Origin: Opitutia bacterium
GTDB taxonomy: Bacteria; Verrucomicrobiota; Verrucomicrobiia; Opitutales; Opitutaceae
Length of the DNA: 64,000 nucleotides
Reading direction: 5' to 3'
Assembly (NCBI GenBank): GCA_016187925.1
Contig: JACPIS010000042.1
Span: 62,001 to 126,000 of the forward strand
Shown here in pieces: positions 33,000-37,404 of this stretch. The notes beneath the pieces are model-generated. The model made no database searches. It was given only the letters and a program-made list of their open reading frames with translations, and was not told where the DNA came from. Positions within the stretch are counted from its first letter, which is position 1. Each line of letters opens with the position of its first letter. The translations under genes and the position numbers were made by a program.

Positions 33000-33204
33000 C
33001 GGGTCATTGAGGAATTGCGCTTGGCCCTGAGCAAGAACGATTTTTGTGGATGAACTGATGCCTATGAACGGGATAAATCAGTCATTGGATTTAGCGCGCG
33101 AATCGGGTATTTTTGTCTCGACAATTTCCGCAAAACTTATTGCCTCTGCGGGCTTTGCGCCGCACGGCGCGATCCAGTTTACATACACAGTGAGCACATC
33201 CTCC

Positions 33205-34545
33205 ATGAGAAAACGTCCCATTCCGGCGCGCCGATTCATCAAGCCGTCGTTTACCTCCCTGATTGAGAAGAAACGCGATGGCCAGGAATTCACGCAGGAA
33301 GAGATCCGTTACATTATCGACTCCGTCCTCGACGGAGAGATGCCGCAGCATCAGCAGGCCGCCCTGCTGATGGCGATCTACTTCGCCAACATGTCCGCGC
33401 AGGAGACGGCGATCCTGACCGAGGAGATGATGCTGTCCGGCGAGGTCATCGACCTCTCGCACATCGCGAAGCCGAAGATCGACAAGTACTCGACCGGCGG
33501 CGTGGGCGACAAGACCGCCCTCGTGCTCGCCCCGCTCGCCATGGCCAGCGGCGTCGTCGTGCCGATGATGTGCGGCGTCGAACAGCAATACGTCGTCAAC
33601 ACGCTCGACAAGCTCTCCGCCATCCCGGGCTTCAAGAGCCACATGACGATCCAGCATTTCCAGGATCAGCTCGCGCGCGTCGGCGGCGCCATCGCCGAGC
33701 AGAGCAAGGAGCTCGCGCCGGCCGACCAGATTTTCTACGACCTGCGCCTCGAGACCGGCACCATCCCGAGCCTCCCGCTCATCACCGGCTCCGTCCTCTC
33801 GAAGAAACTCGCCGAGGGCGCCGAAGGCCTCGTGATCGACGTCAAGTGGGGCAACGGCTCCTTCATCAAGGATCTCGAGCAGGCCAAGCAGCTCGCGCGC
33901 TCCATGACTCGCGTCGGCCGCTCCATGAAGCGCCGCTGCGTCGCGCTCGTCACCGACATGAACCAGCCGCTCGGCGACACCGTCGGCACCGCGCTCGAGA
34001 TCAAGGAAGCCATCCAGCTCCTCAAGGGCGAGGGCCCCGAGGACATGAAGGAACTCGTGCTCAAGCTCGGCATGGAGATCGTCCGCCTCGCCGGCGTCGC
34101 CGGCTCCACGCTCTCCGCCAAGCAGACCGTGCAGCGCCACCTCTCCGACGGCTCCGCCCTCGAGAAGTTCAAGGACATGGTCAAGGCCCAGGGCGGCGAC
34201 ACGTCCTTCATCGATCACCCGGAGAAATTCCCGACCGCGCGCCACATCCGCAAGCTGCCCGCCCCGAAGCGCGGCTACGTGCACACGATCAACGCCGCGT
34301 TCATCGCGCAGGGCGTCTCGATCCTCGGCGCCGGCAAGGACGCGCACGGCAAGATCGACCACGCCGTCGGCGTCTCCGAGATCAAGAAGGTCGGCACGCA
34401 GGTCAAGCAGGGCGAGCCGCTCATGATGATCCATTACAACGACGAGTCGAAGCTCGAGCAGGCGCTGGAGTATTTCAAGAACGCCTACCGCCTCGCGCCG
34501 AAGCGCCCGATCCCGCCGCCGCTCATCGTCGAGCGCGTCGCGTAA
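33205..34545 (+). CDS. Thymidine/pyrimidine-nucleoside phosphorylase with divergent active site
   Basis: A 446-residue NP-II family phosphorylase, which normally splits thymidine or uridine with phosphate into base and pentose 1-phosphate. The fold is clear: FIKPSFTSLIEKKRDGQ, KYSTGGVGDKT, NTLDKLSAIPGF, LPLITGSVLSKKLAEG and VIDVKWGNGSFIKDL. Compared with E. coli DeoA, Arg171, Ser186 and Lys190 have counterparts (Arg181, Ser196, Lys200), but His85 is Tyr95 and the usual SGRGLGHTGGTLDKLE motif reads CGVEQQYVVNTLDKLS. The nucleobase or sugar pocket is therefore altered, and the substrate may differ. The ATG at 33205 is chosen from the family start; the frame is open 53 codons upstream. A strong terminator follows. 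Confidence 0.85.
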   Translation: MRKRPIPARRFIKPSFTSLIEKKRDGQEFTQEEIRYIIDSVLDGEMPQHQQAALLMAIYFANMSAQETAILTEEMMLSGEVIDLSHIAKPKIDKYSTGGVGDKTALVLAPLAMASGVVVPMMCGVEQQYVVNTLDKLSAIPGFKSHMTIQHFQDQLARVGGAIAEQSKELAPADQIFYDLRLETGTIPSLPLITGSVLSKKLAEGAEGLVIDVKWGNGSFIKDLEQAKQLARSMTRVGRSMKRRCVALVTDMNQPLGDTVGTALEIKEAIQLLKGEGPEDMKELVLKLGMEIVRLAGVAGSTLSAKQTVQRHLSDGSALEKFKDMVKAQGGDTSFIDHPEKFPTARHIRKLPAPKRGYVHTINAAFIAQGVSILGAGKDAHGKIDHAVGVSEIKKVGTQVKQGEPLMMIHYNDESKLEQALEYFKNAYRLAPKRPIPPPLIVERVA

Positions 34546-34571
34546 GAATTTGCCGCCATTGCTTTCGGCTT

Positions 34572-34609
34572 AAAAAGGCCGGCCCCGTTCGCGGGGCCGG
34601 CCTTTTTTT
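34572..34609 (+). terminator. Bidirectional rho-independent terminator
   Basis: An 11-bp stem GGCCGGCCCCG/CGGGGCCGGCC with a TTCG loop is flanked by AAAAA on the left and TTTTTTT on the right. It can stop transcription of the phosphorylase gene (plus) and of the sigma-factor operon (minus), whose last stop codon lies at 34609. Confidence 0.95.
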
Positions 34610-34971
34610 CACAACGGCACGAAGCGCCGCAGGTCCGACCAGAAGACGTAGGCCAGCGAGATCAGGCTCACCCCGAGGGCCAGGCCGACCGTGGGCGTGG
34701 CCAGCTGGCCGGCCGCGGCGTGCAGTGATTGCGCGAGCGCGGGGAGGCCGCCGGCCTGTAGCAGCTTGAACGAGGCGACTCCCGTGCCGGCGAGTGCGCC
34801 GGCCGCACAGAGCCAAAGGCGCCGGGCGGATCGTGGGGCGGACGGCAGGGCGGTGAGCACGCGCTGCGAGAAGCCGTCGTCGGGCAGCGGGGGCAGGGAG
34901 GCGTTGGCGCGCAGCCAGGCATCGAGAGCCGGATCGTCGGGCGGAGCGGATTTCAGGTCGTCGGGTTCCAT
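34609..34971 (-). CDS. Small membrane protein of the ECF sigma operon, possible anti-sigma factor
   Basis: A 120-residue protein with a roughly 60-residue acidic, Pro-rich N-terminus (MEPDDLKSAPPDDPALDAWL) and two hydrophobic helices (about 65-80 and 95-112). There is no zinc-binding HxxxCxxC motif. The ATG at 34971 overlaps the sigma-factor gene by 19 bp, so the two are coupled. By position and topology it could anchor or inhibit the sigma factor; this is inferred, not visible as a known domain. Confidence 0.65.
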   Translation of the reverse strand: MEPDDLKSAPPDDPALDAWLRANASLPPLPDDGFSQRVLTALPSAPRSARRLWLCAAGALAGTGVASFKLLQAGGLPALAQSLHAAAGQLATPTVGLALGVSLISLAYVFWSDLRRFVPL

Positions 34972-35489
34972 GACAGGAGGAGCGGTCGGAGTTTTGCTTT
35001 GCCGCGGTGCAGGTGGGTTTTGACGGTGCCGAGCGGCCATTGCAGCACGTCGGCGATTTCGGCGTGGGAGAGGCCCTGCTGGTAGCAAAGGTGCAGGGCC
35101 GTCCGCTCTTCCTCTGCGAGCGTGCTCATCGCGTGGCTGAGGTCGTGCCGCAGATCACTGAGCGGAGCGGGTGAGGGGGCGGGTTCGAGCGCGGCGAGGT
35201 GCTCCGGCTCGACCGGCACCGTGCGCTGCTTGCGACGGGCATTGCGCCAGCGGTTGTGGGCGATGCCGAGCAGCCAGGTCGGGAAACTCGAATGGCCGGC
35301 GAACTGCGCCAGTCCGCGCCACGCCTGCACGAAGGTTTCCTGCGCGAGGTCGTCGGACAGCGCGGCGTCTCCCCGGGTCAGGTGCCGGAGGAAATGGCGC
35401 ACGGAGGACTGGTGGCGGCGGACCAGGTCCCCGAACGCGGCGTGATCGTCGGAGACGAGCACGCGGGCGATCAGTGCGGAATCGGTCAC
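34953..35489 (-). CDS. ECF-type RNA polymerase sigma factor
   Basis: A 178-residue sigma-70 family protein of the extracytoplasmic-function class. Region 2 (about residues 20-90) contains FGDLVRRHQSSVRHFLRHL and DDLAQETFVQAWRGLAQF with WLLGIAHNRWRNARR, and region 4 (about 115-170) contains LAEEERTALHLCYQQGLSHAEIADVLQWPLGTVKTHLHRGK, the helix-turn-helix that reads the -35 element. It starts at a GTG overlapping the stop of the upstream DUF6249-like gene (GTGA) and overlaps the small membrane protein downstream, forming a three-gene operon. Confidence 0.92.
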   Translation of the reverse strand: MTDSALIARVLVSDDHAAFGDLVRRHQSSVRHFLRHLTRGDAALSDDLAQETFVQAWRGLAQFAGHSSFPTWLLGIAHNRWRNARRKQRTVPVEPEHLAALEPAPSPAPLSDLRHDLSHAMSTLAEEERTALHLCYQQGLSHAEIADVLQWPLGTVKTHLHRGKAKLRPLLLSWNPTT

Positions 35490-36010
35490 GATTGCGGCGG
35501 GCGTTCGGCGGGCGGCCGGTTCTTGGGCTTGGAGCCGAAAAGGGTGTTGTACAGGGGATGGATCAGCAAGGCCACGCCGATGAAGCCCGGGATCGCGCCA
35601 ACGTATCGCACCTGCGGCGCTCCGATGGAGACGAAGAACAGCGCCAGGCTGACACCGATGGCGATCAGGATCAGTCCGGAGCGGATGTCGTTCCGGTTCT
35701 CCTCAATCCGATCATGTTGGGTTGGCTCGTCGGGGTTGGGAGGGATGGGTTGCCCTTTTTCGAGGGCGACGCGGACCGTCTCATGCCATAGCTCGTGGCG
35801 GCGCTGCGCGAACTTCAAACCGGAAACAATGATGACGGCGATGAGCAGGACGCCGCTGATGATGGCGACGATGGCGATGATCTGGCCGTTGCTGAAGGCT
35901 TCGGCGAGGAGGGGAGGAGTGGGCATGATGACGGAAGAAGCAGACTCGTTGATAATGTTGGAAACAGGCATGGCAACCGTAGCGGGAAGGAGGAGGGGTG
36001 GCATGGACAT
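35486..36010 (-). CDS. DUF6249-like membrane protein
   Basis: A 174-residue protein with three membrane helices (about 43-65, 111-127 and 134-152) and a charged cytoplasmic segment (RRHELWHETVRVALEKGQPI) between the first two. This layout matches DUF6249 proteins often found beside ECF sigma factors in Bacteroidetes and Verrucomicrobia; the family match is from memory. It is first in the sigma operon and overlaps the sigma gene by 4 bp. The ATG at 36010 is used; an ATG at 36004 is also possible. Function unknown, possibly in sensing or restraining the sigma factor. Confidence 0.75.
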   Translation of the reverse strand: MSMPPLLLPATVAMPVSNIINESASSVIMPTPPLLAEAFSNGQIIAIVAIISGVLLIAVIIVSGLKFAQRRHELWHETVRVALEKGQPIPPNPDEPTQHDRIEENRNDIRSGLILIAIGVSLALFFVSIGAPQVRYVGAIPGFIGVALLIHPLYNTLFGSKPKNRPPAERPPQS

Positions 36011-36114
36011 GGGATGGTTACAGAGTGAGTGTCGTGGGGCGGGCGTTTGGATTCAGAAAATCGCCCAAGGCCTTTTTCTTTGCCCTCGGGGCTGTGGCCG
36101 CTTTGCGTGGGCAA

Positions 36115-37404
36115 ATGGCCGAAGAATTCGACGACCTGGAAAACGCCCCCGAAGCCGCCCCCGAACCCAACGCGCTGATGCGCGAGAAGGCGCGCCTCGC
36201 CACGCCCGAGGACAAGGCGCAGTGGGCGCGGCCGTGGGCGCAGCTGAAGTTCGTCAGCTTCCAGCCGGCCATCTTCCCGCGCATGCTGGGCGAGACCTCG
36301 CGCGACGCGAAGCCGGGCGACCTCGTCAACGTCTACGACAAGTTCGGCAACCGCGTCGGCATCGGCCTCTACAACCCGCGCGCCAAGATGCCGCTGCGCG
36401 TCGTCACGCACACCGCCGAGCCGCTGGGTGAGGAGTATTTCGAGACGGCCCTGCGCCGCGCCGTCGCCCTGCGCCGCGACATGTTCAAGCTCGACGCCGC
36501 GACCGACGCGTATCGCGTCATCAACTCTGACGGCGACGGCGTCAGCGGCCTGACCATCGACCGTTACGCCGACACGCTTTACTGCGACGTTTATTCGCTC
36601 GGCATCTTCCAGCGTCTGCCCAAATGGCTGCCGCTGCTGCACGGGTTGCTCGGCACCAAGCACGTCCGCGTGCACGTCGACCACGACCTCGGCAGCCTCG
36701 AGGGCATCAAACCTTCGATGATGAAGGAGATCACCTCGACCGCGCCGAACAAGGTGCGCATCCGCGAGCACGGCGTGAAGTTCGAGGTCGATTTCGCCGA
36801 AGGGCACAAGACCGGCTTCTTCTGCGACCAGCGCGACAACCGCCACCGCTTCGGCACACTGGTGAAGGATGCGCGCGTGCTCGACCTCTGCAGTTACACG
36901 GGCGGTTTTTCCATCAACGCCATCCTCGGCGGCGCCAGCGAGGTGACGGCGGTGGACCTCGACGAGAAGGTCATCGCGCAGGGCCGCCGCAACGCGAACC
37001 TCAACCAGGTTTCGCCCAACAAGCTCAAGTGGGTGCACGCCGACGCCTTCGCCTACGCCCGGCAGATGCAGAAGAACGGGGAGAAATTCGACGCCGTGCT
37101 GTGCGACCCGCCGAAGTTCGTGATGACGCGCGAGCCCGCCGGCGCCGCCGAGGGCATGCGGAAATACGCCGATCTGAACACCATCGCCGCCGGCCTGGTG
37201 AAGCCGGGCGGGCTGTTCGTCACCTGCTCGTGCTCCGGCCTCGTCTCGCTCGAGACGTTCGAGGAGTGCGTCATCAAGGGCGTGCACCGCCTCAACCGCC
37301 GCCTGCAGATCTTCGACCGCACCGGCCCCGGCGTGGATCATCCCGTCTATTCGAACTGCCTCGAAAGCCGTTATCTGAAGCTGCTCTGGGCGCGGGTCAT
37401 GTGA
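36115..37404 (+). CDS. Class I SAM-dependent rRNA methyltransferase, RlmI-like
   Basis: A 429-residue methyltransferase with the layout of RlmI/YccW: an N-terminal PUA-like RNA-binding part, an EEHD-like middle (YRVINSDGDGVSGLTIDRYADTLYCDVYSLG), and a C-terminal Rossmann domain with SAM motif CSYTGGFSINAILGG and the catalytic-loop signature DPPKFV. CSCSGLVS near the end is typical of the m5C branch. E. coli RlmI methylates C1962 of 23S rRNA; whether the same base is used here is not shown. The ATG at 36115 gives the best fit, since upstream codons lie over the promoter of the divergent sigma operon. Confidence 0.85.
   Translation: MAEEFDDLENAPEAAPEPNALMREKARLATPEDKAQWARPWAQLKFVSFQPAIFPRMLGETSRDAKPGDLVNVYDKFGNRVGIGLYNPRAKMPLRVVTHTAEPLGEEYFETALRRAVALRRDMFKLDAATDAYRVINSDGDGVSGLTIDRYADTLYCDVYSLGIFQRLPKWLPLLHGLLGTKHVRVHVDHDLGSLEGIKPSMMKEITSTAPNKVRIREHGVKFEVDFAEGHKTGFFCDQRDNRHRFGTLVKDARVLDLCSYTGGFSINAILGGASEVTAVDLDEKVIAQGRRNANLNQVSPNKLKWVHADAFAYARQMQKNGEKFDAVLCDPPKFVMTREPAGAAEGMRKYADLNTIAAGLVKPGGLFVTCSCSGLVSLETFEECVIKGVHRLNRRLQIFDRTGPGVDHPVYSNCLESRYLKLLWARVM

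Follow-up and report, generated by a model that had tools for sequence, protein, structure and literature searches.

The Cnr system of Cupriavidus metallidurans combines an anti-sigma factor that has one membrane helix with the periplasmic sensor CnrX. Class II anti-sigma factors, represented by CnrY, have none of the class I bundle, and about 44% of the class I anti-sigma domains are devoid of a zinc motif, according to the available sections of PMC7406223. In CnrY, two short alpha-helices contact the sigma factor (available sections of PMC7406223 and PMC8103513). A further, non-classical type of membrane anti-sigma factor is encoded next to the gene for an ECF sigma factor; the accessible text of PMC13088901 and PMC13114119 describes long proteins that reach the outer membrane and carry a C-terminal beta-barrel.

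The locus compared here with these systems lies in a stretch of 64,000 nt from an Opitutia bacterium (GCA_016187925.1, contig JACPIS010000042.1, positions 62,001-126,000 of the forward strand), referred to as the window. On its minus strand, from 36010 to 34609, three overlapping ORFs encode a DUF6249 protein, an ECF sigma factor and a small membrane protein (Table 1). The first-pass annotation had described this locus as overlapping genes for a DUF6249-like protein, an ECF sigma factor and a 120-residue membrane protein with two helices, and this description was correct. The overlap comprises 4 nt between the DUF6249 and sigma genes and 19 nt between the sigma gene and the third gene, for which a longer in-frame ORF of 159 aa, starting from TTG, is also present. 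The operon is flanked by a divergent SAM-dependent methyltransferase gene (plus strand, ending at 37404) and by a convergent pyrimidine nucleoside phosphorylase gene (plus strand, 33046-34545). The hairpin at the end of the operon has a predicted folding energy of -33.1 kcal/mol (z -5.67), and 0 of 200 shuffled sequences were as stable. It probably terminates transcription of the operon and, read from the opposite strand, also that of the convergent phosphorylase gene. A consensus promoter and terminator scan of the locus missed this hairpin; it returned one sigma-70-like site on the other strand, which occurs by chance, and one weak hairpin, neither of which is related to the operon. In our estimate, the probability is about 60% that the locus encodes a self-regulated ECF sigma/anti-sigma module with DUF6249 as an extra conserved membrane partner.

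Table 1. Features of the operon, with positions in the window.
Feature	Position	Strand	Description
DUF6249 membrane protein	35486..36010	-	174 aa; PF19762; three predicted membrane helices; alignment A1, AlphaFold2, positive-inside count
ECF sigma factor	34953..35489	-	178 aa; GTG start; regions 2 and 4; Pfam and NCBIfam
Presumed anti-sigma factor (third protein)	34609..34971	-	120 aa from ATG; alignment A2, AlphaFold2
Promoter-like element TGAATCC-N17-CACTCA	36026..36055	-	-35 at 36055-36049, -10 at 36031-36026; presumed autoregulatory ECF promoter
Very stable hairpin between runs of A and T	34566..34612	-	RNA fold; probable terminator

The sigma factor belongs to the ECF (group IV) sigma-70 proteins, as it contains regions 2 and 4 and no other sigma regions. 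The Pfam models Sigma70_r2 and Sigma70_r4_2 matched residues 22-89 and 116-167 of 178 with 60.8 and 57.8 bits, respectively, and the NCBIfam model sigma70-ECF (TIGR02937) matched with 90 bits, compared to a cut-off of 42.9. The relatives in the PDB include SigH, RpoE and CnrH (E 7.9e-11 for the latter).

The first protein is a member of the DUF6249 family (PF19762, 62 bits versus a curated cut-off of 33). AlphaFold2 predicted a core of three long helices (pLDDT 88, pTM 0.58), and a Foldseek search with this model yielded 84 matches at E<=10 and none at E<=0.001. The motif RR.ELWHETARxALEKGQPLPP is conserved, and the invariant residues of the core in alignment A1 (25 sequences) are H37, A43, K46, G47, P51, G73 and G106. 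On counting lysine plus arginine in 63 sequences, we obtained 9.9 for the first loop, which joins helices 1 and 2, versus 0.4 ahead of helix 1, 0.7 for the second loop, which joins helices 2 and 3, and 2.6 for the end of the protein. Because the positive charges are concentrated in the first loop, the HETARxALEKGQPLPP part is predicted to be on the cytoplasmic side. In three loci (L056, L090 and L091), a signal-like N-terminal stretch was seen by eye ahead of helix 1, which is consistent with an outside N-terminus of DUF6249.

The first-pass annotation had proposed that the same triplet be looked for in other genomes, and it was recovered: among 70 distinct DUF6249 loci, 61 contained all three genes in the same order, and 67 had an ECF sigma gene directly downstream of the DUF6249 gene. 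The triplet occurs in two classes of the Verrucomicrobiota, in Caulobacteraceae and in Myxococcota. For the Opitutaceae, including the window, 31 of 34 loci contained the sigma gene and 27 all three genes; the respective numbers were 29 and 28 for 29 further, best-scoring loci of Caulobacteraceae, and seven and six for seven other loci, including that of Brevundimonas lutea. The Caulobacteraceae loci that were read represent the 30 best-scoring DUF6249 matches only. A locus that was reached in two ways was counted once (L060-L089 and L092-L096 were left out as repeats of earlier loci), and the count also leaves out L084, L088 and L089, which have no DUF6249 match, as well as L098-L106, which have sub-cut-off DUF6249 matches and no such neighbours. 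L043 was scored as a triplet despite the presence of the DUF6249 and sigma matches in one ORF, and L048 despite a weak sigma match (3e-29). The single ORF of L043 (3396-4016) is shortened, as if the two genes had been fused, either by a deletion that kept the frame or by an error of assembly.

The three loci in which no sigma gene was found are broken (L025), unlinked (L027) or located at a contig end (L030). For six loci with a sigma gene, the count includes no third gene: three are cut off by the edge of a contig (L004, L007 and L057), one contains the third gene and an interrupted sigma gene (L009), one contains the third gene out of frame (L132), and in one no third gene is present in spite of available room (L039). 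Seven of the Caulobacteraceae loci (L116, L119, L120, L122, L123, L131 and L136) contain a second ECF sigma gene on the same strand within about 1 kb upstream.

Among 150 genomes of the family, DUF6249 was found in 26, the sigma factor (E<=1e-25) in 24 and the third protein (profile A2) in 25, and all three genes occurred together in the same 24 genomes. Profile A2 was built from loci found via DUF6249, so that the presence of the third protein there is by construction; the informative point is that almost all other genomes lack it. DUF6249 without such a sigma factor occurred in G020 (a weak, unlinked match, L027) and in G146 (sigma fragments, L025). The third protein alone was found in a single genome (G040), in which a different ECF sigma gene directly precedes the third-like gene (L084). 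Within the genus of the window, DUF6249 was detected in 2 of 13 genomes with profile A1, and the module therefore comes and goes. In named genomes, a search with the single DUF6249 protein retrieved no relative, and a search with alignment A1 retrieved 27 loci. Four of these do not belong to the Verrucomicrobiota; they come from Brevundimonas lutea, Anaeromyxobacter oryzae and two Myxococcales MAGs. Of 387 genomes of the phylum, 18 had a PF19762 match, 9 of them over the cut-off; the triplet was present at L090 and L091, which are from the same class as the window, and at L097 from another class, and nine weak sub-cut-off matches (L098-L106) had neither sigma nor third-gene neighbours. DUF6249 was detected in 91 of 99 genomes of the Caulobacteraceae, the family of Brevundimonas, and, among the control genomes, in Caulobacter vibrioides. 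The triplet is a conserved unit, recurring more often than by chance, and probably constitutes a genuine, little-studied signalling module with one of the membrane proteins holding the sigma factor in check.

The third protein is predicted to consist of about 48 cytoplasmic residues followed by two membrane helices. In the Opitutaceae (alignment A2), these N-terminal residues contain the most conserved motif, L..LLR...LPDDGF(S/T)xRVLAALPP, and an arginine-rich stretch lies between the motif and the two membrane helices. Across 49 sequences of the third protein, the 25 residues that precede helix 1 contain 4.7 lysines plus arginines. For the protein of the window, AlphaFold2 predicted short N-terminal helices at 14-23 and 34-41 and long helices at 49-74, 76-90 and 93-109, with a mean pLDDT of 84 and a pTM of only 0.38. 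A comparison of the profiles A2 and A4 showed the third proteins of the Opitutaceae to be related to those of the Caulobacteraceae, with a probability of 95% and an E-value of 3.3e-8 over 96 columns. The best Pfam match of the window protein was DUF5056 (PF16479) with 22.1 bits, which is under the cut-off of 28 and does not place the protein in this family. DUF5056 matched 16 of 22 third proteins of Opitutaceae when hits with E<=0.1 were accepted (the lowest E-value being 9e-7) and, in contrast, none of 28 third proteins of Caulobacteraceae. Both DUF5056 and DUF6249 were matched in Bacteroides ihuae.

The curated anti-sigma models of Pfam and NCBIfam did not match the third protein, a Foldseek search with its model had no match at E<=10, and the solved structures included no credible relative (best E 0.021, a designed protein). 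A HxxxCxxC motif was absent from all 61 third proteins and from all 70 DUF6249 proteins. The earlier statement that neither membrane protein has a classical zinc anti-sigma motif was thus borne out, and the third protein is not a member of the zinc-binding class I. The further suggestion that this absence implies a different type of anti-sigma control was not supported, because about 44% of the class I domains are zinc-free and class II functions without the bundle, according to the sections of PMC7406223 mentioned above; the absence of a zinc motif is by itself not new. The class I arrangement, a three-helix bundle plus a fourth helix, was not found: the model of the window protein (pTM 0.38) has solely the short helices 14-23 and 34-41 before the membrane helix 49-74. 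This predicted anatomy, two short helices and no bundle, resembles that of class II (CnrY type), although neither a sequence nor a fold match links the two. The CnrY type is further characterized by a complex in which helix 1 lies on sigma4 and helix 2 on sigma2.

The module resembles the CnrH-CnrY pair in its zinc-free, membrane-anchored, presumed anti-sigma factor with two short helices, which are predicted for the third protein and described for CnrY in the excerpts cited above, and CnrH is among the PDB relatives of the sigma factor. It differs from the Cnr system in having two predicted membrane helices and a DUF6249 partner, and its third protein has no detectable sequence similarity to any solved chain. 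It shares with RseA-RpoE and with zinc-free class I factors the N-terminal cytoplasmic part, which is presumed to bind sigma, and the position of the membrane protein gene directly after the sigma gene; unlike these class I proteins, it has two short predicted helices in place of the bundle. In contrast to the beta-barrel type, the window protein has 120 aa and no such domain. Two further systems were considered and set aside. Caulobacter SigV, which has a calcium-binding neighbour, is a different locus as far as the available text describes it, and the accessible text on CirY/CirZ of Phocaeicola gave no sign of DUF6249.

The third protein is the better candidate for the anti-sigma factor than DUF6249, as judged from the sequences, because its gene follows the sigma gene, because it has a conserved motif in its predicted cytoplasmic N-terminus, and because a third-like gene exists at L084 without DUF6249. 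At that locus (L084:908-1821), the other ECF sigma gene overlaps by 4 nt with the gene for a 111-aa third-like protein. It is possible that DUF6249 holds the sigma factor as well. A stronger version of this idea is that DUF6249 and the small protein form a joint two-part anti-sigma complex, in which the small protein would provide the sigma-binding helices, DUF6249 would be needed for hold or release, and neither would work alone. Such a complex would account for the gain and loss of the three genes together in the family genomes, and also for the location of the most conserved part of DUF6249 (H37, A43, K46, G47 and P51), which is in the predicted cytoplasmic loop, on the side where sigma would be located together with the N-terminal part of the third protein. 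However, the pair at L084 combines a sigma factor with a third-like protein without DUF6249, and the partial correlation of distances across 25 loci of Opitutaceae was weaker for sigma and DUF6249 (0.24) than for sigma and the third protein (0.52); the respective values for 29 loci of Caulobacteraceae were 0.42 and 0.51, and both sets of values come without a significance test and track the species tree. We regard the joint complex as a tentative and rather unlikely alternative.

The first-pass annotation had also suggested that an autoregulated promoter might be found before 36010, and a conserved promoter-like element was present there. The element TGAATCC-N17-CACTCA ends 15 nt before the start of the DUF6249 gene, and the pattern TGAATCCN{16,18}CACTCA has one exact match in its own genome, at 36055-36026 of the window. 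In the Opitutaceae, all 13 letters of TGAATCC-N17/18-CACTCA were found in 22 of 30 scored loci and at least 12 letters in 25 of 30, and none of 600 dinucleotide shuffles exceeded 11 letters. The consensus was read from the scored loci themselves, so that these numbers measure conservation and are not an independent test; the scoring leaves out L018, L025, L030 and L039, because of contig ends or a failed motif search. The counterpart in the Caulobacteraceae is GCATCC-N17-CCTCTT, for which at least 11 of 12 letters were found in 22 of 30 loci compared to 3 of 600 shuffles, with a spacer of 17 in 28 of 30 loci. A non-circular cross test was possible with the 12-mer of the Opitutaceae -35 region: in 8 of 30 Caulobacteraceae loci, the upstream region contained a match of 10 or more of the 12 letters, compared to 6 of 600 shuffles. 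In the Myxococcota, TGAATCC-N17-CGTC was seen by eye at L051 and L057 and was absent at L056. The conservation of the element just before the operon argues for autoregulation, and it fits an ECF promoter that is used by the sigma factor itself and has been kept over long times.

Several observations concern the surroundings of the element. The ATG of the DUF6249 gene follows the -10-like CACTCA very closely in the window (36010-36031), and the distance is about 5 nt in L026; the operon mRNA may be nearly leaderless, or the start of DUF6249 may be a later in-frame ATG. In the Caulobacteraceae loci L110-L139, a conserved A/T-rich element lies about 10-25 nt upstream of GCATCC, and a pattern search located TTACGAAnnTTTCA in 14 of the 30 loci; in other loci of this family, AAAACTTAAT or ATTTTATTTAAT was seen by eye ahead of the -35 region. 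This element may be an UP element or the site of a second regulator. Five genomes of Caulobacteraceae (G567:C509, G533:C66, G511:C1, G558:C27 and G575:C299) share a sequence of 29 identical bases, GCATCCCCCCCTCTTCCTCTCTACCTCTT, which does not look like the promoter of this sigma factor. One genome without a DUF6249 match (G121) contains a copy of the element with the typical spacer beside the same methyltransferase gene (L142:2475-2504), and this copy is probably a relic of a lost triplet.

The distribution of the element bears on what the sigma factor transcribes. In the 150 family genomes, the exact element occurred at 49 places in 41 genomes, 20 of them before DUF6249 genes, and the reversed control gave 3 places. 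A wider regulon was not seen in the Opitutaceae with a looser form of the element, which, outside the operon, occurred 8 times in 24 genomes that have the module versus 12 times in 24 genomes that lack it. In the Caulobacteraceae, the exact element occurred at 44 places in 35 of 99 genomes, 24 of them before DUF6249-type genes (including a place in G537 assigned by reading L153), and the reversed control gave 7. Ten of the 20 places away from DUF6249 were inspected, and four of these were, by eye, close before ORFs with signal-like N-termini. These four are too few to claim a regulon. Exact copies of GCATCC-N17-CCTCTT were noted at L145, L146 and L149, close before genes for exported proteins that, judged by eye, are serine hydrolase-like, erythromycin-esterase-like and amidohydrolase-like, respectively, and that are possible regulon members.

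One could argue from the apparent lack of a wider regulon that DUF6249 is the main output of the system and itself a protective effector, that the sigma factor drives few other genes and that the third protein is the sole regulator. The promoter-proximal position of the DUF6249 gene and the exact element, which in the genome of the window occurs solely before DUF6249, are in line with this possibility. We consider it improbable, as the promoters of a regulon may differ from that of the operon, and as 20 of the 44 exact matches in Caulobacteraceae are away from DUF6249, with signal-like ORFs after four of the ten inspected. It is very unlikely that both membrane proteins are bystanders in the operon and that sigma is controlled transcriptionally or by a protein encoded elsewhere: some ECF groups are indeed controlled otherwise, without an anti-sigma factor (available text of PMC8999054), but the strict co-occurrence and order across phyla and the translational overlap speak against this explanation.

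For the self-regulated module with its additional membrane partner, the third protein is best read as an anti-sigma factor that lacks zinc, is anchored in the membrane and would bind sigma through a very short segment, and DUF6249 as a co-regulator or sensor. The sigma factor would transcribe its own operon from TGAATCC-N17-CACTCA. DUF6249 would be made first, coupled to the sigma gene by the 4-nt overlap. In the resting cell, the 120-aa protein, with two membrane helices and a cytoplasmic N-terminus, would bind sigma, and the contact would be made by the short helices 14-23 and 34-41, around the LPDDGF.QRVLTALP motif. The bound sigma factor would presumably be kept off RNA polymerase. DUF6249, located in the membrane with the conserved helix HETARxALEKGQPLPP on its cytoplasmic side, may modulate this hold upon a change in the membrane.

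According to the predicted topology, neither membrane protein of the window has a sizeable periplasmic domain. It is conceivable, though we hold this with low confidence, that DUF6249 and the two-helix protein form a minimal two-part membrane sensor/anti-sigma complex with almost no periplasmic part. DUF6249 would read the state of the bilayer, and its cytoplasmic helix would free sigma from the CnrY-like segment without the usual stepwise periplasmic proteolysis. The design, including the promoter, would be ancient and common to Verrucomicrobiota, Alphaproteobacteria and Myxococcota.

A literature search on DUF6249 and DUF5056 retrieved one unrelated paper only, and the module was not named in the retrieved literature on ECF and anti-sigma factors; the main ECF re-classification lay outside this search and may catalogue the group. 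The components are of known kinds. What is new is the gene combination, the very short zinc-free part that presumably binds sigma, and the DUF6249 partner across phyla. DUF6249, a family without known function, gains a strong functional context from its ECF sigma partner in nearly all (67 of 70) loci, and the module points to a very short zinc-free type of anti-sigma factor. The promoter-like element makes a reporter assay feasible, and the presence of DUF6249 in Caulobacter vibrioides makes the idea testable in a standard laboratory species.
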